Shown here: piece by piece, positions 3,109 through 55,300 of the stretch
Layout of the letters: the number at the start of each line of letters is the position of its first letter
Numbering within the stretch: position 1 is the stretch's first letter
Assembly: GCA_003171215.1 (NCBI GenBank)
Contig: PMYN01000129.1
Coordinates: 1-64,000, forward strand
Reading direction: 5' to 3'
DNA length: 64,000 nucleotides
DNA from: Gemmatimonadota bacterium
GTDB taxonomy: Bacteria > Gemmatimonadota > Gemmatimonadetes > Gemmatimonadales > Gemmatimonadaceae
Notes under the pieces: model-generated
Told to the model about the DNA's origin: nothing
The model's database searches: none
Seen by the model: the letters and a program-made list of their open reading frames with translations, nothing else
Position numbers and translations under genes: made by a program

Positions 3109-3918
3109 TTACCGCTTGCGGGCAGAAATCAGTTCGGGAGCCCAAGTCTGCCAGCTTCCACGTTCTCCTTGCATCGCGATGATTCGCGTGAGCCGTTCGG
3201 CCGCATTGTGCCAGTTTGTCTCAGCCGCGCGTTGCGCAGCATCGGCATCACCCTTGGCGATGCTCCGAGCGATCTTCTCGTGCTCCTTGACGGACGTCGC
3301 GAGCCGATCGAGAAGGACGCTCACGTAGAGGCGCGAGTACCGGTCACTCTGCGGTTTGATAGCCCGGTGGAGTGTGAGTAGCCGAGGTCCGACGACGCCT
3401 TCCACATAGCGGCTGTGAAACTCATGGTCAAGCTCGAAGTAACGATCGCTACTGCCGGGCCGGCGTGATTCGGCTTCGAGTTCCGCATTGGCTTCACGAA
3501 GCTTCTTCACGATTTCGCGTCTGCGCGCCGCGGGGAGCAGCGCAGCGGTGCGCGCGGCGAGCCCCTCAAGATGTCCGACAATGAAGAACACTTCACGCCC
3601 ATCGTCCATCGTGAGTGGGGCGACATAGAGCCGTCGCTCGCGGCCGCGCCCATTCGCGGCAACGAAGCCTTCCTGCTCGAGCCGGTGGAGTGCGCTTCGG
3701 ACGGGCGTTCTACTGAGTCCGAGCCGATCTGCCATGATCCGCTCCGAAATGCGCGATCCGGGAGGCAATTGTCCACTGACGATGACGACGCGCAGCGTTT
3801 GGTAAGCGCGCGTGACGTTGTCCGCCTCGCCATTGACACTCGCCGTTTGATCGAGAGAGGCGCGAGATGCGCGGCGCCTCGCTGGCGCGGCGGCGGAGCG
3901 AGTTGTAGTAGATGCCAT
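3109..3918 (-). CDS. GntR-family transcriptional regulator, FCD (FadR-like) subgroup
   Basis: Read from ATG 3918, this 269-residue protein has an N-terminal winged helix with the GntR hallmark (LPPGSRISERIMADRLGLSR, then TPVRSALHRLEQEGFV). It is followed by an all-helical effector domain with the FCD metal/ligand positions: Asp and His in YFELDHEFHSRYVEG, and a later NWHNAAERL helix. FCD regulators usually repress catabolic genes and release DNA on binding a carboxylate or amino-acid-like effector. The gene is divergent from the CocE-type peptidase, and a GGTATACC palindrome lies in the shared upstream region. The same motif recurs upstream of three other loci in the window, so this protein is the obvious candidate to bind it. 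Confidence 0.9.
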   Translation of the reverse strand: MASTTTRSAAAPARRRASRASLDQTASVNGEADNVTRAYQTLRVVIVSGQLPPGSRISERIMADRLGLSRTPVRSALHRLEQEGFVAANGRGRERRLYVAPLTMDDGREVFFIVGHLEGLAARTAALLPAARRREIVKKLREANAELEAESRRPGSSDRYFELDHEFHSRYVEGVVGPRLLTLHRAIKPQSDRYSRLYVSVLLDRLATSVKEHEKIARSIAKGDADAAQRAAETNWHNAAERLTRIIAMQGERGSWQTWAPELISARKR

Positions 3919-4006
3919 GGCTAAAAAGCTCACTGGTGGCGAACGGCCCCGCAAGCCGTGCGTACTCGTCGTGGTCCATACAAATCAGAATGCCGAGATG
4001 GTTCGC

Positions 4007-4021
4007 AATTGTGGTATACCG
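4007..4021. promoter_or_regulatory. candidate GntR operator, site A
   Basis: AATTGTGGTATACCG, with the perfect palindrome GGTATACC at 4013-4020, lies between the divergent GntR regulator and CocE-type peptidase genes, about 90 bases before the peptidase start. It matches the T-N-G-T...A-C-N-A dyad of FadR/FCD-type GntR proteins and is nearly identical to sites at 18453 and 23833. Confidence 0.55.
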
Positions 4022-4110
4022 ATGCGACCGGTATGTTCGAGCGCAGCGAGCAGGACTTTCAACCGCACAGGCGCGTTCGTGCATTGGCCCTGAGACCCGG
4101 AGGTAGATTC

Positions 4111-5970: not shown

Positions 5971-6498
5971 CGACGGTCGGGACCGACGCGTCTGGCCGCA
6001 CCGAATTGGGACTTAAGCTGAGTGAACGTGCCCGCGCCTGGTCCGTTCCACTAATCGACCGCCCGCGCAAAGAACGAGACGCCTCGGATATTCTCATCCC
6101 CACCGCGTACAGCGCCTCCGGCGCGGCGTAGCCGCTCGTGTGCCGCTGCACCGTGCGCGCGACTGCTCGACTGATTCGAGCGGCTCCAATTCGCATCGGG
6201 TCGACGGCGAACGGCGCGTTGGCCAACGATCTTCCGAAGATCGAGACGCTGGTCGTGTAGTCCTTGCGCACCAGATACGACGGTTCTAGCTTCTGGAGGC
6301 CTAAGCGGTATACCAGATTGGTAGTTTGAAAGTGTTGTTCGGCGCCCTGCGGATTGAGCGGCACGTGCCCCGGGAAGAACTTCGCTCGGATGTTGGTGGC
6401 AACCTCGTCCGTACACAAGAACAGCTAGCCATACGTTTCCGGCAGCAGCTACGCTCTCATTTCTTGCGGTTCGTGGGTTGCCGCGGAGGTTCGGTCCC
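5971..6498. other. intergenic region, no convincing gene
   Basis: A minus-strand frame of about 160 codons (6418-5939) is open, but it shows no recognisable domain and overlaps the end of the preceding gene, so I do not call it. The useful content is a GGTATACC palindrome at 6307-6314 and the ribosome-binding site of the next gene. Confidence 0.5.
6305..6316. promoter_or_regulatory. candidate GntR operator, site B
   Basis: GCGGTATACCAG contains the same perfect GGTATACC palindrome (6307-6314) as sites A and C, but lacks their AATTGT extension. It sits about 185 bases upstream of the serine hydrolase start. Confidence 0.4.
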
Positions 6499-10442: not shown

Positions 10443-10455
10443 CCGAGGCAAGAGC

Positions 10456-14823: not shown

Positions 14824-15945
14824 TCACTCCGGATTGCTCGCGGGCGGTCGGCGACCCGTGACGGTCGGGGCAGCAGGCGGAAGGCCGAGCGCCGCGCGAA
14901 GAATCTGCCGGGAAAGCAGCCCAGGGTTTCCTCTGAGAGAGTTGGCGAGCACGGTAACGGACAATTCTTCGTCGGAGACCCATGCGTTGGCCGACGTGAA
15001 ACCAGGGATGGATCCTCCGTGTTGAATCAATTTGTGGCCAGCGATGGTGTCGATGATGAGAGCAAATCCGTATCTGCTCGCCGCCGCCGCACCTTCTGGC
15101 GTCGTCATCAATCGGTATGATGCCGCGGAGACCACTTTGCCGGTGTGCAAGGCGAGATTCCAGCGCGCCATATCACCGACCGTCGAACAGATCGCACCCG
15201 CCGAGAACGCCTGCGACACCGAGAAATACGGCGCGTTGACGACTGTATCGTTGAGCAAGTCGTACCCGCGCGCGCGATGGGGAATGATCGAGGCCACGTC
15301 GCATACGCGAGTACTGCTCAGTCCAAGAGGTTTCGCAAACCGCTCGGCGAAATCGACCACCCAGCGCTTCCCCGTGACCCGCTCGATGATCATGCCGAGC
15401 AGAACGTAGCCCTGATTGTCGTACTTGTACTTGGTGCCGGGCGCGAAATCCATCGGAACGTTGAAGGTGGGAGCGATCATCGTATCAGGCGTCATCTCCT
15501 CACCCCAGCGCTGCGGCCACGCGGGCACGGCAGTGTAGTTCGGAATGCCGGATGTGTGATTGAGCAGCTCGTGCACCGTGACCGCACGCCACGCTTCGGG
15601 CAGCGACGGCAGATAAGAACCGATCGACTCGTCGATCTTCACCTTCCCCTGATCGACGAGTTGCATTATTGCAGCCGCAGTGAACTGCTTGGTCGCCGAG
15701 CCCAGTTCGTATACGGAGATCGACGTCGCATCGACGTTTTGCTCGATGTCAGATTTTCCCCACGCACCCATGACAATCGGGTTGCCGCCCCGAGTGATGG
15801 AGATGGCGATGCTCGGCGTGCTGCCTGCCGCGATGAAAGCTCTTGCGAGTGAATCCACTTGATGCACGATCGTCGCATTGGTCGGACGGACTTGCGCTGC
15901 AGCCAGTGCAGGCACAATGATGAGGGTGCTAACAAGACGTCGCAT
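14824..15945 (-). CDS. exported serine hydrolase (class C beta-lactamase fold)
   Basis: The 373-residue protein has a short signal peptide (STLIIVPALAAAQ) and a single catalytic domain. The motifs are Ser83-Ala-Thr-Lys86, Tyr175-Asp-Asn177 and His309-Gly-Gly311, with spacing normal for the penicillin-recognising serine hydrolases. Unlike its neighbours at 6499 and 11733 it has no extra C-terminal domain. It likely acts in the periplasm on D-amino-acid-containing peptides, esters or amides; sequence does not decide which. It is followed on the same strand by no close gene, so it may be transcribed alone. Confidence 0.87.
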   Translation of the reverse strand: MRRLVSTLIIVPALAAAQVRPTNATIVHQVDSLARAFIAAGSTPSIAISITRGGNPIVMGAWGKSDIEQNVDATSISVYELGSATKQFTAAAIMQLVDQGKVKIDESIGSYLPSLPEAWRAVTVHELLNHTSGIPNYTAVPAWPQRWGEEMTPDTMIAPTFNVPMDFAPGTKYKYDNQGYVLLGMIIERVTGKRWVVDFAERFAKPLGLSSTRVCDVASIIPHRARGYDLLNDTVVNAPYFSVSQAFSAGAICSTVGDMARWNLALHTGKVVSAASYRLMTTPEGAAAASRYGFALIIDTIAGHKLIQHGGSIPGFTSANAWVSDEELSVTVLANSLRGNPGLLSRQILRAALGLPPAAPTVTGRRPPASNPE

Positions 15946-16044: not shown

Positions 16045-18336
16045 CTACCGGCCAGCTGGCGGCGTCTGCTTCTCCCAGACGAACCGCCTCAGAAAATCGC
16101 CCGTATGAGCGTACATGTCGATCATCCGACTATGGATTGACACTTCGTGCATATCGTCTGGCACCATGAGCAATTCGAAGTAAATATTTCGTGCTCGCAG
16201 AAGCGGAATCAGGCCGATTGTTTGTGAGGCATCCACGTTCCGGTCATCATCCGCCTGCCACAGCATCACGGGTGATTTCCACGAATCGATCGCGGCGATG
16301 GCGGAAGACTCAAAAGCGACCGAGCTATCGGAGATCGTGCTACCGTACAGGTGCACACCAGCGAGGTCGGCTCCCGCGACGAAAATGTCAGAGTTACGCG
16401 CGAGCGCTTGCGCCGTGAGCAGGCCGCCGTAGGAAATCCCATATATACCGATGCGGGCGGGATCCACATCAGGTCGTGATTGCAAGTATTTCGCGCCCGC
16501 CACGACATCCTGGTATTCAGAGTTACCACTTGCCATTGTGCCTGGGGCGTTTGTGAACGATCGCCCGTATCCAATGCCGCTTCGATAGTTGATGGATATC
16601 ACGACATAGCCCTGATCTGCCAGCCACTGATTGAAGGCGTAGCACCATGAATACGCCTGCATATAGTGGTAGCCCGGCAGCATCTGTCGCGGCGGTCCGC
16701 CGTGGACGTATACGATTGCGGGGCGACGTTCCCCCGGTTTGAGGTTCTTGGGCAGGAACAGCTGATTGTGAATCTCCAAGCCGTCCGCTGCTTTGGTGAG
16801 AACGATCTGCGGGGTGACGTGGGCGGCCGCCGGAAAGTCCGCCGGCAGGGCTGGGAAGATGAGCCTGGTCGCGCCGTCTTCGGCTGACACGATACCCACC
16901 GAGCCCGGCTGCGCGACGCCGTAGGAGAGGATAGCGAACTGCTTGCCCGACGCGACTGGAGTCGGAAACGCCTCGATGTTGCTCCCGCTGGTGATACGGC
17001 GCGGCGTTCCGCCTGTAGCTGACACCGCCCAAACGTGCCGGCGCTCAATGTCACCCGCGTTCGTGTAGTAGTAGAGCGTCTTGCCGTCGGACGAGATCGC
17101 TGAGCCTTCGATCAAACCATCGGTTGTGGTCAGCCGAACTGGCGGCAGGTTGGCGCTGGAGAGATTGATGCTGTAGTAACGGTCCCACTCGTCGCGGGGA
17201 ACTTGAACCGGGAAGACGACATTATCGCCTGCCAGACGGACGTTGTTGATGTTGGCGAAGAGGGGATCCCCCGCCTGGTTGTGCCAGACCTCTCGTGCTG
17301 TCAGCGTGGACACATCGGCGACCATGAACGAAAGCGTGTAGCCGCCCGTGAACGCCGAACTGTACAACCCTGGCGAACGGAGCAGCGGATTATTCGGCGC
17401 CGCACCACCACCTGCACGTCCCTCGCCGCCGCGTCCGCGCCCGCGTCCTCCTCCTCCACAGCCACCATCCAAGCCGCTCCCGCCTGCGCGAGCTGCGGCC
17501 GCGACTCCGAGGGGCCCCGCCGCGCCTCCTGATGCGCCCGCGGCCTGTTGCACTTGCTGTCCGAACGGCGCCCCAGGCCGACGCATGAAGAACAGTCGCT
17601 TCCCGTCCGGAAACCAAGTCGGACTTGCGTCGCAATCGAAACTCGGCGCGATGTAATCGACCGATCGGGTCTTCCCGTCATAGATCCCGATGAGGGAGTG
17701 ATTCATGCGCGAGCTCACAAACGCGATCTTCGAACCGTCGGGTGACCACCGTGGGGACCCATTATTCCCCCACTCTTTAATGAAGGGCACGCCACCGGTA
17801 TCCATGGACGTCGTCGGCACTCCCTGCGCAATCCGAACCCGGTAGATCTGCGCGTCCTTCGCGTAGAGCGCAAAGCGCCCGTCCGGCGAGAGTTCGAATC
17901 CCGAACCTTCCGCGACACGCCATGCCGGTCCGCCATTTGTACGCACGGCCCATGTCGCATAGTCGCCACCGTCCGGATTGTGTGACGGATTTGCGATCCA
18001 TCCCTGCCGGTTTGGAGGAGTGCCACGGACAAAAATTGCGGTGGATCCGTCATCCGACAGCGCCAGCTCAGTCAATTCGACGCCGTCATCCTTTTGAAAG
18101 CGCGTCAGGCGCAGCGGTTTGAAATCCGGCGCGGCCGCCGTGTAGACGTTTCGCATCCCACGATCGTATACGATCCACGCGATTCGGTCGATCTTCTTCG
18201 CCGCCACAAGTTCCGACGGAGATGCGGGACTCAGGAACTGTGCGATGGTGGGTTTCGCCTGCGCGCGAAGTTGTGGCGCAAGGACGACGCTGAACGTCGC
18301 AAGGACAACGCTGAGGGCGCGACGGGAGCGGAGCAT
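16045..18336 (-). CDS. exported prolyl oligopeptidase-family (S9) peptidase
   Basis: The 763-residue protein, from ATG 18336, has GGAGG just upstream and a signal peptide ending QLRAQAKP. The N-terminal ~480 residues form a WD40/beta-propeller-like domain (repeats such as SPRWSPDGSKIAFVSSRM). The C-terminal alpha/beta-hydrolase holds Ser635 in GISYGG, Asp698 in DDDRNV and His730 in DDMHEVS. It would cleave short peptides, often after proline, in the periplasm. A Gly/Ala/Arg-rich insert around residues 265-305 sits inside the propeller region and is probably a disordered loop. The gene is divergent from the GNAT gene, and both may be controlled from the site C region. Confidence 0.9.
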   Translation of the reverse strand: MLRSRRALSVVLATFSVVLAPQLRAQAKPTIAQFLSPASPSELVAAKKIDRIAWIVYDRGMRNVYTAAAPDFKPLRLTRFQKDDGVELTELALSDDGSTAIFVRGTPPNRQGWIANPSHNPDGGDYATWAVRTNGGPAWRVAEGSGFELSPDGRFALYAKDAQIYRVRIAQGVPTTSMDTGGVPFIKEWGNNGSPRWSPDGSKIAFVSSRMNHSLIGIYDGKTRSVDYIAPSFDCDASPTWFPDGKRLFFMRRPGAPFGQQVQQAAGASGGAAGPLGVAAAARAGGSGLDGGCGGGGRGRGRGGEGRAGGGAAPNNPLLRSPGLYSSAFTGGYTLSFMVADVSTLTAREVWHNQAGDPLFANINNVRLAGDNVVFPVQVPRDEWDRYYSINLSSANLPPVRLTTTDGLIEGSAISSDGKTLYYYTNAGDIERRHVWAVSATGGTPRRITSGSNIEAFPTPVASGKQFAILSYGVAQPGSVGIVSAEDGATRLIFPALPADFPAAAHVTPQIVLTKAADGLEIHNQLFLPKNLKPGERRPAIVYVHGGPPRQMLPGYHYMQAYSWCYAFNQWLADQGYVVISINYRSGIGYGRSFTNAPGTMASGNSEYQDVVAGAKYLQSRPDVDPARIGIYGISYGGLLTAQALARNSDIFVAGADLAGVHLYGSTISDSSVAFESSAIAAIDSWKSPVMLWQADDDRNVDASQTIGLIPLLRARNIYFELLMVPDDMHEVSIHSRMIDMYAHTGDFLRRFVWEKQTPPAGR

Positions 18337-18442
18337 AAGGTCCTCCGTGAGCTGGAAGCGAGCCGATCGGAAGTCGAGGGAACACGCGGGTCCGTTGGAA
18401 ACTAAGGGAATAGCGCAAGAGGCACTAGACTGATACTCCTGT

Positions 18443-18466
18443 ATGGTCACCATTGTGGTATACCGA
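18443..18466. promoter_or_regulatory. candidate GntR operator pair, site C
   Basis: ATGGTCACCAT (18443-18453), an odd-centred palindrome, is followed immediately by TTGTGGTATACCG with GGTATACC at 18457-18464. Both halves fit the TGGT...ACCA pattern of FCD-type GntR regulators. The pair sits in the divergent region between the S9 peptidase and the GNAT/racemase operon. Confidence 0.55.
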
Positions 18467-18530
18467 AACTATGCGTAGGTTCGTCCTGCGCGAACTGCCG
18501 ACTGCCTGCAAACCTCTCGAAGCCGATAGC

Positions 18531-19403
18531 ATGAAACAGGATGTTTCGCGTCAAGCAAGCGCTAACACCGCTCCGGCCCTGTTGATCGAACACGGGCCGC
18601 CGGAAGTCCACATCCGGCCGATCACCTCGCTGACGGAGTTTCGCGCGTGCGTGGAGTTGCAGGCGGAGGTGTGGGGCCCCGAGTACACGGACGTCGTTCC
18701 GGCATCCCTCATGCAGGTAGTGACGATGCATGTGGGAGCTGTCGCACTCGGCGCGTTCACCGCAACGGACGAACTGGTCGGCTTCCTTTTCGGCCTAACC
18801 GGCGTTGACGGCGACGAGATCGTGCACTGGTCTCACATGCTCGGGGTCCGTCATGCCGCACGCAACCTCGGCATTGGCCGGATGCTCAAGGAAGCCCAGC
18901 GCGCCGCGCTCGCGGAGCGCGGCGTTCACCGGATATCGTGGACCTTCGATCCACTCGTCGCGAAGAACGCCTATCTGAATCTCAATCGCCTGGGTGCTCG
19001 CGTGGTCGCATACATGCCAAACGTGTATGGCACGACGACCAGTCCTCTCCACTATGGCATCGCGACGGATCGCCTTGTCGTAACGGAGGACACACGTGCA
19101 GCGGCGCCGACGGAGGACGCGCTTGTGGCGGCACCGATTCGTTTACCAGTGCTGACACGGGAGATGCAGGACGGTGACGTCGCAGTGCAGGTCTCCGCAC
19201 CGCCCCCGGAGCTGTGGATAGAGATTCCAACCGATATTCGGCACGTATTCGAGCACGCGCAGACGGCCGCCGTCGCCTGGCGTGAATCAGTCCGCGCGCA
19301 CTTCCAGTGGGCGCTGGGGCTGGGCTATGAGGTCACTGGACTCCAGCGCGATCCTGTGACCTCGCGGTCGTTCTACCTCTTGCGTCGAAAGGAAGGTGTA
19401 TGA
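18531..19403 (+). CDS. GNAT-superfamily acyltransferase (COG3375-like), copy 1
   Basis: From ATG 18531 the protein has 290 residues; an in-frame ATG at 18471 abuts the operator and is less likely. The acetyl/acyl-CoA binding core is visible as HWSHMLGVRHAARNLGIGRM followed by LKEAQRAALAERGV. The subfamily signature FDPL...NAYLNLNRLGARV follows, then a C-terminal extension of about 110 residues. In Geobacillus a D-amino acid N-succinyltransferase of this type works with an N-succinylamino acid racemase; this gene overlaps such an enolase-family gene (ATGA), which supports the same role. Substrate and acyl donor are inferred. A paralogue lies at 24005. Confidence 0.8.
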   Translation: MKQDVSRQASANTAPALLIEHGPPEVHIRPITSLTEFRACVELQAEVWGPEYTDVVPASLMQVVTMHVGAVALGAFTATDELVGFLFGLTGVDGDEIVHWSHMLGVRHAARNLGIGRMLKEAQRAALAERGVHRISWTFDPLVAKNAYLNLNRLGARVVAYMPNVYGTTTSPLHYGIATDRLVVTEDTRAAAPTEDALVAAPIRLPVLTREMQDGDVAVQVSAPPPELWIEIPTDIRHVFEHAQTAAVAWRESVRAHFQWALGLGYEVTGLQRDPVTSRSFYLLRRKEGV

Positions 19404-20578
19404 CCAGTCCCTCTGATAATACGCGTGCCGCTCTGCAGATCGACCGCATAACCATGCGCGAAATTCGGCTTGAACTTCGAGAGCCGTTCCGCATTTCGTC
19501 CGGCCTCATGTCCGCTCGCCGCATCGCGCTGCTCGAGCTGTTCGACGCAAGCGGAGCGAGAACGTGGTCGGAGTGCGTGGCGTTCCAGCTGCCGATCTAC
19601 TCCTCGGAAACAATCGACACCGCGTGGCTGGCGATTCGCGAGTGGCTCGCCCCGCGAATCCTGGGGCGTCGGTTCGAGAGTCCGGAAGAAGTTCACGCCG
19701 TGCTCGAGGAGAGCGTTCGCGGGCACAACATGGCGAAGGCCGCGCTGGAGATGGGCTGTTGGGGGCTTGCCGCAGTGCTGCGAGCAACGCCACTCGCGAC
19801 CTTGCTCGGCGGGACGCGCGATCGCGTCCCGACAGGAATCTCGCTCGGCATTCAGCCCGAGCCAGTGCTGCTGGTGCAACGAGCACAGGCGGCGGTGGCC
19901 GCCGGTTATCGCAAGATCAAGGTCAAAATTCAGCCAGGACAGGACGTCGAGTACGTGCGCGCCGTGCGCGTCGCGCTCGGCGATACCGTGGACATCATGG
20001 CGGACGCGAACTCCGCCTACACGTTGCGCGACATCGAGCATCTCGCGCAACTCGATGAGTTCGACCTGATCATGCTGGAGCAGCCGCTCGGTGACGACGA
20101 TCTCGTTCGTCACGCGACGTTGCAGCGACGCATGACCACGCCGATCTGCCTCGACGAATCGATCACGTCCGTCGATCGCGCCGAAGACATGATCGCGCTG
20201 CGGAGTGGACGGATCATCAACATCAAGCCCGGCCGCGTCGGCGGGTTGAGTGCGTCGAAAACCATCCACGACGTCGCGGCACGCGCAGGAATGCCCGTCT
20301 GGTGCGGCGGCATGCTCGAAAGCGGAATCGGGCGGGCGTACAACGTGGCGCTCGCCTCGCTGCCGAACTTCTCGCTGCCCGGCGATTTGAGTCCAAGTGC
20401 GCGGTACTGGGCCCGTGACCTCGTCTCGCCGGAGTGGACGATGGACTTAGATGGGATGGTGCGCGTTCCGGTGAACCGCCCGGGACTCGGGGTCGCGGTC
20501 GATGAGGATCTCATCGAAGCACTCGCGGTGCGTCGAGAGGACCTACGGCCGGCGCGCGTCGTCGTGGCGGCATCATGA
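19400..20578 (+). CDS. N-acylamino acid racemase / o-succinylbenzoate synthase-type enolase
   Basis: The 392-residue enolase-superfamily protein of the muconate-lactonising subgroup carries all expected active-site residues: Lys174-x-Lys176 in KIKVKIQPG, metal ligands Asp202, Glu227 and Asp252, and Lys276 in NIKPGRVGG, followed by CGGMLESGIG. These are the OSBS/NSAR features. No menaquinone genes are nearby, whereas a partner GNAT, an amino acid permease and a D-aminoacylase-like gene are, so racemisation of N-acyl amino acids is more likely than o-succinylbenzoate synthesis. The start overlaps the GNAT stop. Dipeptide epimerase is an alternative. Confidence 0.88.
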   Translation: MTSPSDNTRAALQIDRITMREIRLELREPFRISSGLMSARRIALLELFDASGARTWSECVAFQLPIYSSETIDTAWLAIREWLAPRILGRRFESPEEVHAVLEESVRGHNMAKAALEMGCWGLAAVLRATPLATLLGGTRDRVPTGISLGIQPEPVLLVQRAQAAVAAGYRKIKVKIQPGQDVEYVRAVRVALGDTVDIMADANSAYTLRDIEHLAQLDEFDLIMLEQPLGDDDLVRHATLQRRMTTPICLDESITSVDRAEDMIALRSGRIINIKPGRVGGLSASKTIHDVAARAGMPVWCGGMLESGIGRAYNVALASLPNFSLPGDLSPSARYWARDLVSPEWTMDLDGMVRVPVNRPGLGVAVDEDLIEALAVRREDLRPARVVVAAS

Positions 20579-20609
20579 AGACTGCACGCCTGTGCTCCAC
20601 GATGGGCCG

Positions 20610-21980
20610 ATGAACACGCCGGCCGCGACCGGTGACCTGCGCCGCACGCTCGGCTTCAGGGATCTCGTGCTGCTCGCCATGGGCACGGTCATCGGCTCGG
20701 GGATCTACCTCGTGCCGGGCGTCGTGTTGCGGCAGACAGGTGGGCACACCGGCTCGGCGATGCTCGTCTGGATCGTCGCCGGAGGTCTTTCGCTGCTCGG
20801 TGCGCTTACGTACGCCGAGCTTGGCGCGATGAAGCCCGACGCGGGCGGCTTGTATGCGTTCATTCGCGATGCCTTCGGCCCGCTCCCGGCGTTTCTCTTT
20901 GGATGGACGAGCTTCTTCGTCATCGCGAGCGGATCCGTGGCGACGCTCGCTGTCGCATTCTCCGGATACGTCGCGCAGATCGTTCCGATTGCACCGATCG
21001 CATCTCGGGTCATCGCGATTGCCGTGATCGTACTCACCGCCGCGATCAATGTTCGAGGAACGCGCGAGAGTGCCACGGTCCAGAACTGGACGACGGGGCT
21101 GAAAGTTGGCGCGCTGCTCGTGATGGGAATTGGGCTGATCGCGTTCGGTCATCCGCCTCGCGACGCCGCGACGACGCTGTGGCCATCGTCGGTGACTCCG
21201 TCTGTCCTGACTGGCTTCGGCACGGCGATGATCGGCGTGTTGTGGGCGTATGAAGGCTGGCAGTACGTGACGTTTTCCGCTGGTGAGACGCTCGATCCGC
21301 AACGCACGTTCCCGCGCGCGATCACCGTGGCGACTGCCGCGCTCATCGTCACGTATTTGCTGGCGAGCTTCGGGTACATTGCCGCACTCGGGCCGGATGC
21401 CGCCGCTCAGTCCGATCACATCGCGGCCGACGCTGTGGGCGCGTTGCTCGGTCCGATCGCGGGCAAGCTGGTCGGCGCGCTCATTCTTGTCTCGATCTTC
21501 AGCGCGGCGAATGGATTGCTGCTCACCGCGCCCCGGATGTACTACGCGATGGCGCGCGACGGCCTGTTCTTCAAGCGTCTTGCCGTCGTCGACAAGCGAT
21601 TCGGCACGCCCGCGTTCGCGATATCTGCGATCGCCCTATGGGCCGCGGTGCTCGCGGTGAGCGGGACGTTCGAGCAACTGCTCACCTATGTCGTCTTTAC
21701 CGGCTGGATCTTTTACGGGCTCGGCGGGCTGGCGGTCTTGCAGCTACGGCGCAAGGAGCCCGATGCGAACCGGCCATTTCGAGTACCGGGCTATCCCATC
21801 ACGCCGCTGCTGTTCGTTGCGTCGGCGGCGTTGCTCGTGGGCAACACGGTGATCGCGCAGCCGGTCCGTGCGGCGGCCGGCATAACCGTGATGCTGGCCG
21901 GCATGCCGGCCTTCTATCTCTGGCGCGCGAAGTCACACCGCGCGCTGATTGTTCTCCCACCTGAACCGATGGAGCGCTGA
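20610..21980 (+). CDS. APC-family amino acid permease
   Basis: The 456-residue inner-membrane protein is read from ATG 20610. It has the family's unwound first helix (VLLAMGTVIGSGIYLVPG) and about 12 hydrophobic segments. The conserved LGALTYAELGAMKPDAGG segment follows helix 2, and IFSAANGLLLTAPRMYYAMARDG lies between later helices. It is probably a secondary importer or exchanger for an amino acid. Its stop shares a base with the next start (TGATG). Placed between the racemase and the deacylase-like gene, it likely brings in or exchanges the amino acid they process. Confidence 0.9.
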   Translation: MNTPAATGDLRRTLGFRDLVLLAMGTVIGSGIYLVPGVVLRQTGGHTGSAMLVWIVAGGLSLLGALTYAELGAMKPDAGGLYAFIRDAFGPLPAFLFGWTSFFVIASGSVATLAVAFSGYVAQIVPIAPIASRVIAIAVIVLTAAINVRGTRESATVQNWTTGLKVGALLVMGIGLIAFGHPPRDAATTLWPSSVTPSVLTGFGTAMIGVLWAYEGWQYVTFSAGETLDPQRTFPRAITVATAALIVTYLLASFGYIAALGPDAAAQSDHIAADAVGALLGPIAGKLVGALILVSIFSAANGLLLTAPRMYYAMARDGLFFKRLAVVDKRFGTPAFAISAIALWAAVLAVSGTFEQLLTYVVFTGWIFYGLGGLAVLQLRRKEPDANRPFRVPGYPITPLLFVASAALLVGNTVIAQPVRAAAGITVMLAGMPAFYLWRAKSHRALIVLPPEPMER

Positions 21981-23764
21981 TGCCGATTCCCCGGCAGTTC
22001 GATCTTCCATGGGCGCGCCCGCACGACCGTCTCGCGAAGGTCCGGCGCGCCGTCCTTCATGGAAGTAGGGTGCTGGGGCTTGCACTGGCGACTGCCTGCG
22101 TCGGTGTGCACACCACGACCATCGGTGGCGGCGGTGCGCCGGCGGAGTCCAGCTACGATCTCGTCATCGCCAATGGGCGTATCGTGGATGGCGCGGGTAA
22201 CGCGTGGTTCTACGGCGACGTGGCGATTCGTGGCGATCGCATCGCCAAGATCGTGCGACGGGGGTCGCAAGCACAACTCCCTGCACTCCGGCGTATCGAC
22301 GCAACCGGCATGGTGGTCGCGCCCGGTTTCATCGACATACAGGCGGGTGGCAACTACCTCTCGGGCGACGGACGCGATGTCAGTAAAGTCACGCAGGGAA
22401 TCACGACGGAGATTTTCGGTGAGGCGTACACCGGCGCGCCGATCAGCGAGCTCTCGCTTGCGAATGCGTCGCCGGCGGCAGCGTCCGCCGCGCGCCAATT
22501 CATGGGACCACATGGATTCGACGCTTGGCTGCGCGCGATGGAGTTGCACGGCATCTCGCCGAACGTCGGATCGTTCGTCGGCGCAAGCACCGTGCGGCAG
22601 TTCGGCATGGGGATGCGCATGGGTCCTGCGACGAGCGTGGCGATGGACGCCATGCGCGGCGCCATGCGCAACGCAATGGAAGACGGCGCTTTTGGTCTCG
22701 GCACCGCGCTCATCTATCCTCCGGGCAATTACGCGAGCACGGAAGAGCTAATCGAGCTCGCAAAGGCGATGGCACCGTATGGCGGCATCTACATCACGCA
22801 CATGCGGTCCGAGGCCGACAAGGTACTTGAAGGAATGGACGAAGCGATTCGGATCGGTCGTGAGGGCGGCGTCCCGGTGGAGATCTATCACCTCAAGGCG
22901 GCGGGCACGGCGAACTGGAGCAAGGAAACGGAGATGATCGCGAAAATCGATTCGGCGCGCGCCACCGGATTCGATGTCCAGGCGAACATGTATCCGTACA
23001 CCGCGGGCGGCACGGGCCTCGCCGCGTGCCTGCCGCCTTTCGCGTCTGCGGACGGAAAACTGTATTCGAATCTCGCCGATGACGCTCAGCGCGCGAGGAT
23101 CCGCGCAGAAGTCGCCCACCCGACGAGCTTCTGGGAGAGTCTCTGCGAACAGTCCACACCGCAGGGCGTGCTGATTACCGTCCTGCGCAGCCCCGCCAAT
23201 CAGCAGTGGTCCGGCCACCGCCTCTCGGAGATTTCGGCGGGAATGGGAAAAGATTGGCTCGAGACCGTGATGGATTTACTGCGCGCCGAACAGCGGGACA
23301 TTGGGACGATCTACTTTCTCATGAATGAGGACAACGTCCGCCTGCAACTGAAGCAGCCGTGGATGAAGATCGGTACCGATGCCGGTGGCAGCGATCCCGA
23401 CAGCACGAAGTCGCTGGTGCATCCGCGCTCGTACGGGACGTATCCGCGCATACTCGGCAAGTACGTTCGCGACGAGCACGTGATCCCGCTCGAGGACGCG
23501 GTGCGAAAGATGACGGGCGCCGTCGCGGCACGGCTGCTCATTGCGGATCGCGGGCTGCTTCGACCCGGCATGTATGCGGACGTCGTGGTCTTTGATCCCC
23601 AGCGCATACAAGAGAATTCCACGTATGAGAAGCCACTGCAACTCTCGACCGGGATGCACGTGGTGCTCATCAACGGCGTCGAGGTCGTGCACGACGGCCG
23701 GCACACCGGGGCGAAACCCGGGCGCATCGTGCGCGGGTCTGGGTGGCGCGCCGCTGGTCATTGA
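21980..23764 (+). CDS. D-aminoacylase-like amidohydrolase (N-acyl-D-amino-acid deacylase family), altered metal site
   Basis: The 594-residue protein has an N-terminal hydrophobic segment and Cys40, possibly a lipoprotein signal. The family framework is clear: APGFIDI near residue 115, QGITTEIFGEA near 139, ITHMRSEAD with His274, EIYHLKAAG with His304, the MYPYTAGGTG loop near 337 and GTDAGG with Asp467. Two features depart from characterised D-aminoacylases: the His-x-His after GFID is replaced by Gln121-Ala-Gly123, and the Cys metal ligand position is Glu148. So at most one metal site remains in the usual arrangement. I expect a hydrolase acting on N-acyl-D-amino acids or D-containing peptides, but the altered site makes activity uncertain. 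Confidence 0.8.
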   Translation: MPIPRQFDLPWARPHDRLAKVRRAVLHGSRVLGLALATACVGVHTTTIGGGGAPAESSYDLVIANGRIVDGAGNAWFYGDVAIRGDRIAKIVRRGSQAQLPALRRIDATGMVVAPGFIDIQAGGNYLSGDGRDVSKVTQGITTEIFGEAYTGAPISELSLANASPAAASAARQFMGPHGFDAWLRAMELHGISPNVGSFVGASTVRQFGMGMRMGPATSVAMDAMRGAMRNAMEDGAFGLGTALIYPPGNYASTEELIELAKAMAPYGGIYITHMRSEADKVLEGMDEAIRIGREGGVPVEIYHLKAAGTANWSKETEMIAKIDSARATGFDVQANMYPYTAGGTGLAACLPPFASADGKLYSNLADDAQRARIRAEVAHPTSFWESLCEQSTPQGVLITVLRSPANQQWSGHRLSEISAGMGKDWLETVMDLLRAEQRDIGTIYFLMNEDNVRLQLKQPWMKIGTDAGGSDPDSTKSLVHPRSYGTYPRILGKYVRDEHVIPLEDAVRKMTGAVAARLLIADRGLLRPGMYADVVVFDPQRIQENSTYEKPLQLSTGMHVVLINGVEVVHDGRHTGAKPGRIVRGSGWRAAGH

Positions 23765-23832
23765 GCTTCTGAGAAGCGTTGTGAGGTGTGGAAGTAGCAG
23801 AGGCAACGCGACGCCTATGTGCGCGCGCCACC

Positions 23833-23850
23833 AATGTGGAATACCAAACT
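23833..23850. promoter_or_regulatory. candidate GntR operator, site D
   Basis: AATGTGGAATACCAAACT differs from the core of sites A and C by one base (GGAATACC) and shares the AAACT seen right after site C. It lies upstream of the second GNAT gene and the SusC/SusD genes. Confidence 0.45.
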
Positions 23851-24004
23851 AGTACACTCTTGCGGTATGCGAACCGAAACTCTACTTTCTGCCACGTATC
23901 AGTCATGTCACGGTCGGTCGTCCAGCTCCCGGAGCCACCACGTGTGTGCTCGTCCCTCTGCTGCAGCCGCTAGGTCGGCGCCAGATAGTCCACATCCGGT
24001 CGTT

Positions 24005-24805
24005 ATGTCGGACGTGACGCTCCGTCGGCTCGGGCTCGCTGAGGAGTTTCGAGCGTGCGTGGCGTTGCAGGAGTCGACTTGGGGACGGGACGGCGAAACG
24101 GTGCCGGTTTCGCTACTCGTGAGCGCGACGCACGTCGGCGGACTGGTGCTTGGCGCCTACGATGCCAGCGAGACGTTGCTTGGCTTCGTCTTCGGCCTCG
24201 CGGGTGCAGATGCGCGGGGCGCCCTTCATTGGTCGCACATGCTGGCAGTGCGTGCCGATGTTCGCGGTGCCGGCATCGGGCGCGCGCTCAAAGAACGTCA
24301 GCGTGCCGAGCTCGCCCTCCAAGGCGTGGACCGAATCGCCTGGACGTTCGATCCGCTGCAATCCCGGAATGCGCATCTCAACATCAATCGTCTCGGAGCC
24401 CGCGTCGTCGAGTACGTCGACGACATGTACGGTGTGACGCGCAGTCCGTTGCACCTTGGAATGGCGACGGATCGCCTGGTCGTCATGACGGGCCCAGGTG
24501 CCATCGCGGTGCCGGTGCAGGCCGTCATCCATGCCGACGGACTGCCAGTCCTTACGCTGTCAGAACATACCGGCGCCCCGGTCGCCGAGCCAATGGCAGC
24601 CGCGTTGCTCGTGGAAGTGCCTTGGGAGATCCAGGAGATCGTCGCATCGGATGCCGCACTGGCCGTGCGTTGGCGCAACTCGATGCGCCGGCATTTTCAC
24701 TTTGCACTGGAGCATGGCTACGGAGTCAGCGGTTTCGTCCGCGACAGGGCCGCGCTCCGGGCCTACTACTACTTCACACGCACGCCCCCGCCCGAGGCGG
24801 GCTGA
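24005..24805 (+). CDS. GNAT-superfamily acyltransferase (COG3375-like), copy 2
   Basis: From ATG 24005 the protein has 266 residues; an in-frame ATG at 23867 would add an Arg/Ser-rich leader that looks non-native. It aligns end to end with the copy at 18531: EFRACVALQ, HWSHMLAVRADVRGAGIGRA, WTFDPL, NAHLNINRLGARVVEY and SPLHLGMATDRLVV. The N-terminal half is the most similar, while the region after residue 170 diverges, so the two paralogues may use different amino acids or acyl donors. It precedes SusC by 61 bases and is probably co-transcribed with it. Confidence 0.78.
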   Translation: MSDVTLRRLGLAEEFRACVALQESTWGRDGETVPVSLLVSATHVGGLVLGAYDASETLLGFVFGLAGADARGALHWSHMLAVRADVRGAGIGRALKERQRAELALQGVDRIAWTFDPLQSRNAHLNINRLGARVVEYVDDMYGVTRSPLHLGMATDRLVVMTGPGAIAVPVQAVIHADGLPVLTLSEHTGAPVAEPMAAALLVEVPWEIQEIVASDAALAVRWRNSMRRHFHFALEHGYGVSGFVRDRAALRAYYYFTRTPPPEAG

Positions 24806-27887: not shown

Positions 27888-27922
27888 CCATGCGCCATCA
27901 CCTCATTGGGAGAACGCGCTCG

Positions 27923-29221
27923 ATGACCAGGTCTCATCACACCTCTCGCACGCGCAGCACGCTCACCCTGTTGGTGGGGTGCAGCATGCTTGGCGCCGCG
28001 GCGTGCTCCGAACTTAGTACGCTGGAGCAAGCGAATCCCGGCCAGCTGCAGACGTCGACGCTCTATGTGCCGACGAATGCCCAGCTGCTGGTCAACGGCG
28101 CCATCGGCGATTTCCAGTGCGCCTTCTTGCGCTACTCCGTCGGCAGCGGCGTGCTCATGGACGAACTGTCGAATGCCATCTCGAACTCGGCCAATTTCGA
28201 CTACGACCGGCGTACGCTGCCCACGAACGCCACCTATGGAACCAATACCTGCAACAGCACTCTCCAGCAGCCTGGCGTGTACACGCCGCTCTCCACGGCG
28301 CGTTCGTCGGCCGACACGGTCGCGGCCAGACTCGAGGGCTGGACGGACGCCCAAGTCGCGAATCGGACCAAGCTCATTGGGCAGTCCTACGCCTATGCGG
28401 GCTACAGTCTCGTGCTGCTCGGCGAGGGGATGTGCTCGGCCGCCATCAATCTCAGCCCCGAGATGACGCCGGCCCAGCTCTTTGCCGCAGCGAAGACGCG
28501 CTTCGACAAGGCGATCACGGCGGCCACGACGGCCAGCGATGCCGCCACAATCAACTTGGCGACGCTGGGCCGCGCACGCACACTGCTCGACCTCGGCTCC
28601 CTGTCCGCGGCCGCGACGGACGCCGCGACGATCACGGACCCTACGTACGTCGCGAATGTCGCCACCGATGCGACGGACGCTCGGCGCCAGAACTCCGTAT
28701 ACGTCGTGACGGTGTTGAACTTCTTCTATACCGTGGATCCGTCGTTCCGCGGCCTCACGTTCGGCGGGGTCGCCGATCCGCGCGTCTCCGTCGTGAACTC
28801 AGGCAAGAGCGGCACCACAGGCGCGGCGATCTGGCAGGCGAGCAAGGGCCTGACGGCAACCGCGCCGATGGCCATCACGCGCTGGTCCGAGGCGCAACTC
28901 ATCCAAGCGGAGAACTTTGTCTCTACCGGGAATTTGAACTCCGCCGTTGCTATCATCAACGCCTTGCATACGAAGGCCGGATTGCCGGCGTACGACGCCA
29001 CGGGCCAGACGGCGGCGCAGGTGCTCGCGCAGGTCATCGAGGAGCGCCGCCGCGAGTTCTTCCTCGAAGGACACCGGCTTGGCGACATCCGTCGGTATAG
29101 CATTCCGCTGAATCCAGCGGCAGGCACGACGTTCCCGCAAGGTGGGACGTACGGCACGCAGGCGTGTTTTCCGCTGCCCGACGTTGAGCGCATCAACAAC
29201 CCGAACATCGCAACTCCGTGA
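27923..29221 (+). CDS. SusD/RagB-type surface lipoprotein
   Basis: I start at ATG 27923, nine bases after GGGAGA; an upstream ATG at 27890 is also in frame. The 432-residue product has a lipoprotein signal ending GAAAC, followed by helical TPR-like repeats. The family's characteristic C-terminal segment is present: VIEERRREFFLEGHRLGDIR, then RYSIPLN and the closing LPDVERINNPN. It would cap the SusC barrel and capture ligand at the cell surface. It lies 35 bases after SusC. A strong hairpin follows its stop. Confidence 0.92.
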   Translation: MTRSHHTSRTRSTLTLLVGCSMLGAAACSELSTLEQANPGQLQTSTLYVPTNAQLLVNGAIGDFQCAFLRYSVGSGVLMDELSNAISNSANFDYDRRTLPTNATYGTNTCNSTLQQPGVYTPLSTARSSADTVAARLEGWTDAQVANRTKLIGQSYAYAGYSLVLLGEGMCSAAINLSPEMTPAQLFAAAKTRFDKAITAATTASDAATINLATLGRARTLLDLGSLSAAATDAATITDPTYVANVATDATDARRQNSVYVVTVLNFFYTVDPSFRGLTFGGVADPRVSVVNSGKSGTTGAAIWQASKGLTATAPMAITRWSEAQLIQAENFVSTGNLNSAVAIINALHTKAGLPAYDATGQTAAQVLAQVIEERRREFFLEGHRLGDIRRYSIPLNPAAGTTFPQGGTYGTQACFPLPDVERINNPNIATP

Positions 29222-29328: not shown

Positions 29329-31230
29329 GTGTCGCGGGTTGCGCGGGCTGCGATCCTCGGCACCGGCCTCGTCGTAAGCGTCTCAGTCCTCGCCTCCGCC
29401 CAGGAGGTCGCGGCTCGCGACACGATACCCAGCGCCGCATGGTTCGACCGCTCCGAGGAAATGATTCCGATGCGGGACGGCGTGGCTTTGCACACGTTCA
29501 TTTTCGTCCCGAAGGACCGCGCTGGCGACCTGCCCATCCTGCTCACGCGGACACCGTACGGCATCGCCGCCTCGAACGGCGTATTCGCCTCATCGTACGC
29601 CGAGTTGGCGCGCGACGGATACATCTTCGTCTTTCAGGACATCCGCGGCCGATTTGGAAGCGAAGGGCAGTTCGTGATGCTCCGCTCGCCTCGTGACAAG
29701 CGCGATCCGAAGGCGATTGACGAAAGCACCGACACATACGACACCATCGAGTGGCTGCTGCGGCACGTGCCGCACAACAACGGCCGCGTGGGGCAGCTCG
29801 GGGTGTCGTATCCCGGCTGGCTCACGGTCATGTCGATGCTCGACCCGCATCCGGCACTGAAGGCAGTCTCGCCGCAGGCTTCGCCAGCCTCGATGTTCCT
29901 CGGCGACGACTTCCATCACAACGGGGCGTTTCGGCTTGCGTACGGCTTCGAGTACGTGGCGATGATGGAGGCGTCGAAGGACATCTCACCTTTTGCGTTC
30001 GACCAGTACGATGGCTACAGCTGGTTCCTGGACGTTGGCTCGCTCGCGGAAATTCCCGCCAGGCTGCACGGCAAATTCCCAACCTGGACCAATTTCTCGA
30101 CGCACCCGAATTTCGACGCGTTCTGGCAGAGCGAGGCGCTGATGCCGTATCTGACGCGCGTGACGGTGCCGACGCTAAACGTCGCCGGCTGGTGGGATCA
30201 GGAGGACTTCTACGGCCCGGTGAAGATTTACGAGACGCTGGAGTCGCACGATTCGCAGCATCTGAACTATCTGGTGGTGGGGCCGTGGAACCATGGCGGC
30301 TGGCGTGGCGCGAGCGGCCAGAAACTGGGGAACATCGATTTCGGTGGACCCACCGCGCGCGATTTCCGTGCGAATATCGAGGCGCCCTGGTTCGCGTATT
30401 GGCTCAAGGGTCGCGGCACGCTCCATCTCGCAGAGGCGACGGTCTTCGAGGCTGGAACGAACCAGTGGCGCTCTTATGACAGTTGGCCGCCGAAGTCAGG
30501 CGTCGCCCCACGTCGACTGTACATCGGGGCAGGCGGAGCGCTTTCGTTTGGCCAGCCGGTTCGCGCGGCGACTGGCGCGACGGCCGGTACGTACGACGAG
30601 TTCGTCAGCGATCCGAACCGGCCCGTGCCCTATCGCGCTCGCCCGATCCCCGCGACGTTCGGTCGGGGCTCCACTTGGTCGACCTGGTTGGCGGACGACC
30701 AGCGGTTCGTGCAGGATCGGGTGGACGTGGTGGCATGGGAGACGCCACCGCTCACCGAGGACGTGACGGTCGCCGGCGCGATCAGCGCTCATCTGTTCGC
30801 GTCCACGACCGGCAGCGACGCTGACTGGGTGGTGAAGCTCATCGATGTCTACCCCGAGCCCAACACTGCTGACGCGAAAATGGGAGGTTACGAGTTCATG
30901 GTTTCTAACGACGTGTTCCGCGGCCGATTCCGGGAGAGTTTCGAGCACCCCAAGGCGCTCGTGCCGGGCCAAGTGAACGAGTTCACCATCGACCTCCACA
31001 CGCAGGATTACCGCTTTCTGAAGGGGCACCGCATTCGAGTGCAGGTGCAGAGCAGTTGGTTTCCGCTCATCGATCGCAATCCGCAGACGTTCGTTTCGAA
31101 TATCTTCGCCGCGCGAGCCAGCGACTTTCAGCGCGCGACGCACCGTATCTGGCGGGCACCCGGCCGGGCGTCGTACGTCGAGCTGCCGATCGCTTCGGCT
31201 GGTGACATTGGACGAGGGGGAAAACCATGA
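29329..31230 (+). CDS. exported CocE/NonD-family hydrolase (X-Pro dipeptidyl-peptidase-like), copy 2
   Basis: The frame is open from 29218, but the hairpin at 29244-29269 would fall inside, so I place the start at GTG 29329; it gives a clean signal peptide (AILGTGLVVSVSVLASAQ) and 633 residues. There is no strong ribosome-binding site, so the start is uncertain. The triad is Ser160 in GVSYPG, Asp290 in AGWWDQED and His322 in GPWNHGGW. The C-terminal jelly-roll domain ends with QVQSSWFPLIDRNPQTFV, as in copy 1 at 4111. The protein probably trims proline-containing peptides in the periplasm for the SusCD system. Confidence 0.88.
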   Translation: MSRVARAAILGTGLVVSVSVLASAQEVAARDTIPSAAWFDRSEEMIPMRDGVALHTFIFVPKDRAGDLPILLTRTPYGIAASNGVFASSYAELARDGYIFVFQDIRGRFGSEGQFVMLRSPRDKRDPKAIDESTDTYDTIEWLLRHVPHNNGRVGQLGVSYPGWLTVMSMLDPHPALKAVSPQASPASMFLGDDFHHNGAFRLAYGFEYVAMMEASKDISPFAFDQYDGYSWFLDVGSLAEIPARLHGKFPTWTNFSTHPNFDAFWQSEALMPYLTRVTVPTLNVAGWWDQEDFYGPVKIYETLESHDSQHLNYLVVGPWNHGGWRGASGQKLGNIDFGGPTARDFRANIEAPWFAYWLKGRGTLHLAEATVFEAGTNQWRSYDSWPPKSGVAPRRLYIGAGGALSFGQPVRAATGATAGTYDEFVSDPNRPVPYRARPIPATFGRGSTWSTWLADDQRFVQDRVDVVAWETPPLTEDVTVAGAISAHLFASTTGSDADWVVKLIDVYPEPNTADAKMGGYEFMVSNDVFRGRFRESFEHPKALVPGQVNEFTIDLHTQDYRFLKGHRIRVQVQSSWFPLIDRNPQTFVSNIFAARASDFQRATHRIWRAPGRASYVELPIASAGDIGRGGKP

Positions 31231-32735
31231 AGCCGCGCCGTGCTTTGCTCGCACTCTGCCTCGCATGCGTCGCGTCTGACGCGCGCGCGCAGGCGCCGAC
31301 GCCGCAGCGCGTCGACCTCTCGGCCTTCGACGCGCTCGTCGCGAAGGCCGCTCGCGATTGGCGCGTCCCCGGGCTGGCCATCGCCGTCGTGAAGGACGAT
31401 TCGCTCGTCTTCGCAAAAGGGTACGGCGTGCTGGAGGTCGGAAAGCCAGCGCCGGCCACCGCGCACTCGCGTTTTGCCATCGGCTCGACGACCAAGGCCA
31501 TGACCACTGCCGCGCTCGCGATGCTGGTCGATGAGGGGCGGTTACGTTGGGACGATCGGGTGATCGACTACCTGCCCGAGTTCCGACTATACGATCCGTG
31601 GGTGACTCGGGAGCTCACGATCCGGGACGTGCTGACGCATCGCAGTGGACTGCCGGGTGTCGATCTCCTCTGGATGCGCGGCGACCTCACGAACGCGGAG
31701 ATGATCACGCGGCTGCGGACCGTGCGGCCGGCGTCATCCTTCCGGTCCAGCTGGGAGTACAACAACGTCGTCTACACCATCGCCGGTGCCATCGTGGCGA
31801 AGGTTTCCGGCATGCCGTGGGAGCAGTTCGTCCGCACGCGCATCTTCGGGCCCCTGCAGATGCGCGAGTCGCTGACGCTGGTGGCCGATCTCCCGGGGCA
31901 GTCCGACGTCGCCACTCCGCACGCGCTGTCGCGCGATACCGTTCGCGTCGTGCCGGTTCGCAGCACGGACGGCGTGGCGGCGGCGGGCTCTGTGTGGTCG
32001 AGCGTTTCCGACATGTCGCGGTGGATGCGATTCATGCTCGACAGTGGACGCGTGGGCACGACTCGGCTGATTACGCCGGCGACCTTCAGTGAGATTGTCG
32101 CGCCGCAGATTCGCGCGCCGAAGGAGGAGTATCCGGCCCTGCGCCTCGCGCGACCGAACACGTTCAGCTATGCGCTCGGCTGGTTCGTTCAGGATTATCA
32201 CGGCGAGACCGTTTGGATGCACACCGGTAGCATCGATGGAATGAGCGCTATCATCGGGCTCATGCCCGATCGGCGCTTGGGTGTGTACGTGCTCGCGAAT
32301 CTCGATCACGCCGAGTTGCGTCACGCGCTCATGTATCAGGTTTTCGATTTGTACACCGGGGCCGCGCCGCGCGACTGGAGCGCCGAGTTGCGCGCGCTGT
32401 TCGAGGGTGCACGCGGAAGGCCGGCAATGTCGGCGACGGGACAAGCGCCGCCCGCACCCTCGGTGCCGTCGCTGCCACTCGAGCGATACGTCGGGACGTA
32501 CGCGGACTCGACGTATGGTGAGGTCGTGGTGTCGCTCGCGGATGGCGCGCTCAGCGCCCGCTTCGGGCCTCGCGAATTCGGGCGCCTCGATGCAGGGCCG
32601 TACGATACGTTTCGGCCGCACACTCCTACGGCAACGTTGGGTGGCGCACCACTCACGTTCGTGCCGGACGGCGCTGGTGGCGTGGCGTCGCTGCGCGTGT
32701 TCGGCGTGACGTTTGCGAGGATTCGAACGAAGTAG
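31227..32735 (+). CDS. exported serine hydrolase (beta-lactamase fold, DUF3471 tail)
   Basis: The 502-residue protein starts at an ATG overlapping the CocE stop. It has a signal peptide (LLALCLACVASDARAQ), the active-site motifs Ser87-Thr-Thr-Lys90, Tyr178-Asn-Asn180 and His332-Thr-Gly334, and a C-terminal beta domain (YVGTYADSTYGEVVVSLADG). Motif spacing and the tail make it a paralogue of the 11733 protein; note HTG here versus HGG there. Direct overlap with the peptidase implies the two act on the same substrates, for example removing D-residues after dipeptide release (inference). Confidence 0.9.
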   Translation: MKPRRALLALCLACVASDARAQAPTPQRVDLSAFDALVAKAARDWRVPGLAIAVVKDDSLVFAKGYGVLEVGKPAPATAHSRFAIGSTTKAMTTAALAMLVDEGRLRWDDRVIDYLPEFRLYDPWVTRELTIRDVLTHRSGLPGVDLLWMRGDLTNAEMITRLRTVRPASSFRSSWEYNNVVYTIAGAIVAKVSGMPWEQFVRTRIFGPLQMRESLTLVADLPGQSDVATPHALSRDTVRVVPVRSTDGVAAAGSVWSSVSDMSRWMRFMLDSGRVGTTRLITPATFSEIVAPQIRAPKEEYPALRLARPNTFSYALGWFVQDYHGETVWMHTGSIDGMSAIIGLMPDRRLGVYVLANLDHAELRHALMYQVFDLYTGAAPRDWSAELRALFEGARGRPAMSATGQAPPAPSVPSLPLERYVGTYADSTYGEVVVSLADGALSARFGPREFGRLDAGPYDTFRPHTPTATLGGAPLTFVPDGAGGVASLRVFGVTFARIRTK

Positions 32736-32775
32736 GCGTCGCGTGCTTCGGTTAACCACGATGGGAGATTCGCTC

Positions 32776-38081: not shown

Positions 38082-38085
38082 ATCG

Positions 38086-45248: not shown

Positions 45249-45325
45249 TCGTCTGCACGGTGACAACGGAGATCCGGAGAGCAGTCGCCGGACATACGAC
45301 TCATTCCATTGAATCCAGGACAGCC

Positions 45326-52711: not shown

Positions 52712-52732
52712 CGCCGGCGCCCGCCATCGGTG

Positions 52733-55272: not shown

Positions 55273-55300
55273 GCCACATTCAGCATAATTCAGAACTTAT

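Follow-up and report, generated by a model that had tools for sequence, protein, structure and literature searches.

A stretch of 64,000 nt from a Gemmatimonadota draft genome (positions 1 to 64,000 of contig PMYN01000129.1, C151:1-64000, hereafter the window; genome 4.14 Mb in 162 contigs, 98.8% complete) carries five genes read in one direction: an acyltransferase of the GNAT family (GNAT1), an enolase of the N-succinylamino acid racemase/o-succinylbenzoate synthase (NSAR/OSBS) type, an APC-family permease, a D-aminoacylase-like amidohydrolase and a second acyltransferase (GNAT2). An initial annotation of the sequence had seen here a variant pathway for the conversion of D- and L-amino acids, in which the amidohydrolase takes the place of a missing M20 desuccinylase. 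In the literature searched, no account of this locus in Gemmatimonadota was found. Genome-wide statements rest on targeted searches of the genome. The enolase locus was compared within its order (55 loci, the window counted among them), its partners being mapped by tblastn; loci, genomes and contigs are denoted L, G and C, and rows with stop codons from metagenome-assembled genome (MAG) loci were left out of the alignments. The operon comprises the following features.

18531..19403, + strand: GNAT1, probable amino acid N-acyltransferase (COG3375-like); start common to homologues, GNAT fold (AlphaFold2 pLDDT 90.2)
19400..20578, + strand: NSAR-type enolase (N-acyl amino acid racemase); TIGR01928 326.7 bits, PDB matches to N-acylamino acid racemase (NAAAR) and NSAR enzymes
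20579..20609, + strand: junction, site of the M20 deacylase gene in relatives, probably lost here; relatives' gene order, junction sequences
20610..21980, + strand: APC-family amino acid permease; AA_permease_2 202 bits, start ATG 20610
21980..23764 (alternative start GTG 22070), + strand: D-aminoacylase-like amidohydrolase with a lipoprotein-type export signal; PDB 1rjp 1.7e-83
24005..24805 (alternative start 23867), + strand: GNAT2, GNAT1 paralogue; tree SH-aLRT 98, invariant GNAT columns kept

The five co-directional genes are as first described. The linked permease and D-aminoacylase relative, both well supported by their profile or PDB matches, and the additional acyltransferase were borne out; the overlapping starts held only in part. 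The overlap of GNAT1 and NSAR is real (4 bp, 19400-19403), as is that of APC and the amidohydrolase at 21980 if the first ATG is used. The apparent NSAR-APC overlap is an artefact, because the first ATG was taken; APC most likely starts at ATG 20610, 31 bp past the NSAR stop. GNAT1 starts at ATG 18531, the start common to its homologues, and not at 18443 or 18453, because the bases there form a predicted promoter-operator. GNAT2 starts at 23867 or 24005 and has its own operator-like site upstream, at 23834-23845.

Judged from its sequence, the enolase is of the NSAR type and belongs to the N-succinylamino acid racemase family. It scored 326.7 bits against TIGR01928 (curated cut-off, 200.65), and its best PDB matches were NAAAR/NSAR enzymes (1e-92 to 1e-85). 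The closest solved structures are the N-acylamino acid racemases of Deinococcus and Amycolatopsis (PDB 1r0m/2ggg and 1sja), which share its catalytic lysines and metal ligands; unlike them, the window enolase falls in a Gemmatimonadota clade and lies within an uptake operon. The KxK acid/base motif, the D/E/D metal ligands, the second catalytic lysine and an arginine three residues further on are all present, and K174, K176, D202, N204, E227, D252, K276 and R279 were invariant among 17 aligned sequences (the enolase, 15 relatives and the Deinococcus NAAAR). R279, the R of K-P-G-R, corresponds to the arginine that the literature ties to NSAR activity. Scores were below cut-off against the DgcA model NF042940 (92.7 bits; cut-off, 400) and the dipeptide epimerase model NF041118 (63.7 bits; cut-off, 500). 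Moreover, in 51 of the 55 loci of the order a same-strand GNAT gene lies at most 350 bp from NSAR, and GNAT-NSAR pairs were found too in Acidobacteria, Chloroflexi, Acetothermia and Bacillota, so this adjacency is not a matter of chance. TIGR01928, the residues and the GNAT neighbour thus support the original assignment of an OSBS/NSAR-type enolase to a predicted D/L conversion module related to that of Geobacillus.

The predicted fold of GNAT1 is confidently that of a GNAT protein, extended by an additional C-terminal element. Both GNATs, though divergent, are recognisable: GNAT2 emerged on a long branch as sister to the clade of GNAT1, L035 and L036 (SH-aLRT 98) and keeps every column that is invariant across 36 sequences. 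By its sequence GNAT2 is a lineage-specific paralogue of GNAT1; that it might be a different kind of enzyme was rejected on its position in the tree and the full set of invariant residues.

No M20 gene lies in the window, so the desuccinylase is indeed missing from it, as first stated. In the order, M20 directly follows NSAR in 40 of the 51 loci having enough downstream sequence (order GNAT-NSAR-M20). The order GNAT-NSAR-M20-APC-amidohydrolase-SusC-SusD was found in L103 (85%), L104 (82%), L107 (75%) and L148 (78%), and again in L105 (78%), with M20 directly after NSAR and APC not detected. Because the closest relatives carry both, M20 and the D-aminoacylase belong to one operon. The window operon corresponds to the relatives' order minus M20 plus GNAT2, and it has probably lost M20 between NSAR and APC, where 31 bp are left from stop to start (20579..20609); a short frame in this junction (MKTARLCSTMGR) may be a scar, albeit a weak one, of the M20 start. 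M20-less loci are spread across the enolase tree and occur also among nearby MAG loci (L108, L109, L112, L135); being scattered, the loss has probably occurred repeatedly. In L103, the APC gene of this closest relative (10453-11067) looks internally deleted, which could be an assembly fault of the MAG.

A second NSAR locus exists on contig C34 of the window's genome, with a GNAT gene, an NSAR gene (65% identical), an intact M20 gene and a divergent amidohydrolase gene. This M20 (C34:49058-50224), beside the second GNAT-NSAR pair, belongs to the same clade, so the genome as a whole does encode the deacylase. In the NSAR tree the C34 protein groups with same-genus genomes and the window protein with G086 and G022 of other genera; the window operon may therefore have come horizontally. 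Searches of the window for tRNA and Rfam families gave no match marking a mobile element. Related M20 genes, 56-68% identical to that of C34, are found elsewhere in four other genomes with M20-less NSAR loci (G064, G116, G042 and G093); the G042 gene lies about 22 kb from the NSAR locus, in a GntR-amidohydrolase-APC-M20 cluster. In the synteny survey, a check that the initial annotation had proposed, the GNAT-NSAR pair was thus conserved, and an amidohydrolase standing in for M20 was not what emerged.

Overall, the amidohydrolase is homologous to the Alcaligenes D-aminoacylase (PDB 1rjp, 1.7e-83). None of the 30 Gemmatimonadota homologues of these loci retains the HxH motif or the metal-binding Cys of the Alcaligenes enzyme, GE standing at the Cys position. 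Wherever the sequence is complete, the homologues keep the two metal His, the catalytic Asp and the Lys/Tyr/HPR motifs, and the pattern suggests a site with a single metal, as in the NagA of E. coli. The amidohydrolase N-termini resemble lipoprotein or secretion signals; GNAT and NSAR have no such signal. Because of this export-type signal and the altered metal site, the protein is probably a feeder in the periplasm, as opposed to a desuccinylase of the cytosol. With about four full-length copies of the family in the genome, a simple density estimate puts the chance of one lying within 9 kb of NSAR at about 2%, a value that would rise to several per cent in some other genomes, which have more copies (up to about 20 matches). 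Such proximity was seen in 20 of the 55 loci; both NSAR loci of this genome have a nearby amidohydrolase, and so do the GNAT-NSAR pairs of Chloroflexi L155 and L161. The amidohydrolase is therefore linked to the pathway, in which it would act as a feeder and not in place of M20. In L183 (G050, same genus), an amidohydrolase at 8937-10649 of that locus, 84-87% identical to the window copy, lies beside SusC/SusD-like and S12 genes; as GNAT-NSAR is absent there, the feeder part can apparently travel separately.

The operon sits in a probable GntR-controlled island, at about 3-32 kb, of D-peptidase-like hydrolases together with a SusCD pair. The regulator and the predicted sites are these.

3109..3954, - strand: GntR/FCD-family regulator, probable controller of the island; Pfam GntR 48.8 bits, FCD 64.1 bits
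4009..4037, + strand: predicted promoter-operator copy 1, TTGTGGTATACC...TATGTT, upstream of the S15 hydrolase gene and the divergent GntR gene; exact core, TTGTGG-N17-TATGTT
6307..6318, - strand: operator-like palindrome GGTATACC, imperfect match, between the S15 and S12 genes
18453..18481, + strand: predicted promoter-operator copy 2, TTGTGGTATACC...TAGGTT, upstream of the GNAT1 operon; exact core, aligned with relatives' GNAT promoters
23834..23845, + strand: operator-like site ATGTGGAATACC, upstream of GNAT2

The exact TGTGGTATACC occurs twice in the 4.14-Mb genome, at 4010 and 18454, both in the window, and near matches to the core lie at 6307 and 23835. The window has five core matches, two of which overlap on the palindrome; in 100 shuffles that number was never reached. 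The two exact sites conform to TTGTGG-N17-TA(T/G)GTT, and a composite site of this form, sometimes with 1-2 changes, precedes GNAT in L103, L104, L105, L106, L107, L108, L109, L110 and L148. In L103, L104, L107, L108, L109 and L148, GntR homologues (49-53%) stand in divergent orientation next to GNAT-NSAR or close by. The GntR protein (3109-3954) is the probable controller of the island, acting at the TTGTGGTATACC operator. The remaining genes of the island are as follows.

3958..5970 as called, + strand: S15/CocE-type hydrolase; real start downstream of the operator, possibly 4126; Pfam Peptidase_S15 186 bits
6478..8484, + strand: S12 (beta-lactamase fold) serine hydrolase; PF00144 209 bits, best PDB match a PBP-related beta-lactamase
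14824..15945, - strand: S12 hydrolase most like alkaline D-peptidase; best PDB match 4y7p, 1.7e-40
16045..18453, real start inside the open reading frame, - strand: S9 prolyl-oligopeptidase-family peptidase, divergent from GNAT1; PF00326 106 bits
24813..27887, + strand: SusC-type TonB-dependent receptor; Pfam CarbopepD_reg_2, Plug and barrel
27914..29221, + strand: SusD/RagB-type lipoprotein; Pfam SusD_RagB 53 bits
29218..31230, + strand: S15 hydrolase, alpha-amino acid ester hydrolase-like; TIGR00976 270 bits, PDB 1mpx 1.9e-149
31227..32735, + strand: S12 hydrolase with DUF3471; PF00144 228 bits

The divergent S9-GNAT pair was also found in L035/L106, L103 (as a fragment) and L105.

We read the whole as a D-peptide and D-amino-acid utilisation locus that feeds the known NSAR pathway, the deacylase being supplied in trans after local loss of M20, and give this reading a probability of about 0.68. 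Its basis lies in the protein families, the catalytic residues, the relatives' operon order, the absence of M20, the second locus, the shared operator and the lack of a MenD above cut-off. Hints of D-substrates come from the relatives of alkaline D-peptidase and of amino-acid ester hydrolase in the island, and from the amidohydrolases near GNAT-NSAR in Chloroflexi. With all activities, the acyl donor, the direction, the export sites, GntR control and the use of M20 in trans taken as predictions, the route would run as follows. Exported hydrolases (S12, S15 and S9), together with the D-aminoacylase-like enzyme, likewise exported, would release D-amino acids or small D-containing products; SusCD would carry material across the outer membrane and the APC permease would import the amino acid. 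GNAT1 and GNAT2 would then N-acylate it, probably with succinyl-CoA, and the NSAR enolase would interconvert the N-acyl-D and N-acyl-L forms. Finally, an M20 deacylase would free the L-amino acid irreversibly; this step is not encoded in the window because the lineage has probably lost the gene, and the enzyme would most likely be supplied from the second NSAR locus on C34. Since M20 is usual in the relatives' operon, is lost here and is encoded elsewhere in the genome, the locus would be an interesting variant and not a new pathway; nothing was found to show the different direction or acyl donor that had been suggested.

Several points weigh against this interpretation. The activities of all enzymes of the locus are predictions. 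The acyl donor of the GNATs cannot be read from sequence, and the structure search with GNAT1 gave generic GNAT matches, with no succinyltransferase among the matches listed. The altered metal site implies that the substrate of the amidohydrolase may differ. The C34 locus has no copy of the same operator, so its M20 might not be expressed in step with the window operon. The loss of M20 from the window was seen in a single draft assembly. Last, the set is not universal: in G007 no M20 match was found in the genome, and neither GNAT nor M20 is near the enolase.

That the D-aminoacylase-like protein replaces the M20 desuccinylase and so closes a variant pathway, as the initial annotation had it, would account for an amidohydrolase sharing an operon with no M20. 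Yet the two coexist in the operon of the closest relatives, C34 carries an intact M20 partner, and an export-type signal is seen in the amidohydrolase but in neither GNAT nor NSAR; moreover, the substrates of D-aminoacylases are N-acyl-D-amino acids, whereas an L product calls for the other enantiomer. We rejected replacement on the relatives' operon order and the export-type signal, and consider it very improbable. An enolase acting as menaquinone OSBS (MenC) or dipeptide epimerase is just as improbable, even if TIGR01928 carries the name o-succinylbenzoate synthase and the family is promiscuous. The MenD search of the genome stayed below cut-off, leaving the Men pathway expected of a menaquinone OSBS without support there, and the MqnA/D family of the futalosine route is present (183.6 bits); for these reasons neither of the genome's two NSAR-like enolases is likely to serve menaquinone synthesis, and the menaquinone role was rejected on the MenD and Mqn searches. 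The two paralogues also have GNAT/M20 neighbours, and the dipeptide epimerase models are far below cut-off.

The M20-less module could instead be a degenerate or redundant copy whose function the C34 locus covers; the lost M20, the complete second locus and the several scattered M20-less loci would fit. Against such decay, NSAR and the two GNATs keep all their conserved residues, the promoter-operator is conserved, the long open frames have no stops and a GNAT has been gained, not lost, so we regard it as unlikely. Quite unlikely, too, is a module for other N-acyl substrates, which would for example racemise imported N-acyl amino acids or make them as products and need no deacylation. M20-less GNAT-NSAR beside SusCD recurs in G064, G042, G116 and MAG loci L108, L112 and L135, and the GNATs may use another donor; most genomes checked, however, keep a same-clade M20 elsewhere, the G042 copy in its APC-amidohydrolase-GntR cluster.

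The pathway that a D-peptide utilisation locus would feed is reportedly that described by Sakai and colleagues in 2006 in Geobacillus kaustophilus, with a GNAT N-succinyltransferase, NSAR and an M20 N-succinyl-L-amino acid hydrolase. As in Geobacillus, GNAT adjoins NSAR, and M20 comes next in the ancestral and most related loci and is present in the genome; unlike Geobacillus, the window has no M20 in the cluster and adds a permease, an exported D-aminoacylase relative, a second GNAT, SusCD, peptidases and a GntR-type operator. In the DgcN-DgcA D-glutamate pathway, N-acylation is followed by racemisation by an enolase-superfamily enzyme (PMC12363236), the order proposed here, whereas the window acyltransferase is of another family and its enolase fails the DgcA model. 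With the Alcaligenes D-aminoacylase (1rjp), the N-acyl-D-glutamate deacylase (3gip) and OngB (PMC9537276), the amidohydrolase shares its overall sequence and the kept residues named above, and it differs from all three in the replaced HxH and Cys (GE at Cys) and in its export-type signal. In marine gammaproteobacteria, TonB-receptor loci adjoin a D-aminoacylase, with predicted uptake of N-acyl-D-amino acid derivatives (PMC3400609); such uptake is likewise predicted here, but those loci were described without GNAT, NSAR or GntR.

Other genes were seen along the window. An AtuA-family protein, an AtuA ferredoxin-like protein and an acyl-CoA dehydrogenase stand in a row inside the island (8609-11673), and 13272-14501 on the - strand encodes an Xaa-Pro dipeptidase-like amidohydrolase (NF051886, 103 bits, below cut-off). 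Directly downstream of the island is a tricorn-like S41 protease (32713-36045) with a homologue (64%) upstream of GNAT in L036, followed at 36384-41242 by a serine-biosynthesis-like run (2-hydroxyacid dehydrogenase with ACT domain, FAD-linked oxidase, HAD phosphatase, class V aminotransferase). A direct repeat of 300 bp (95% identity; 45296-45595 and 55271-55570, 10 kb apart) lies over the starts of two ATPase-like genes; more repeats, at 52392-52735 and 59063-59297, point to segmental duplication.

More generally, Gemmatimonadota might have dedicated GntR-controlled D-peptide utilisation loci, designed like polysaccharide-utilisation loci, with an NSAR pathway fed by SusCD and by exported D-specific hydrolases; some of the copies would drop M20, one deacylase then serving two NSAR modules with different acyltransferases. 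We hold this extension tentatively, at somewhat less than even odds. The case also shows that a single locus can mislead about pathway variants, since an enzyme missing from an operon may have been lost there and be encoded elsewhere. In soil and sediment, D-amino acids and D-peptides form a pool of nitrogen that is degraded slowly, and the locus offers a testable set of genes (uptake, hydrolysis, N-acylation, racemisation, deacylation, regulator and operator) by which a widespread, little-cultured phylum may use both.

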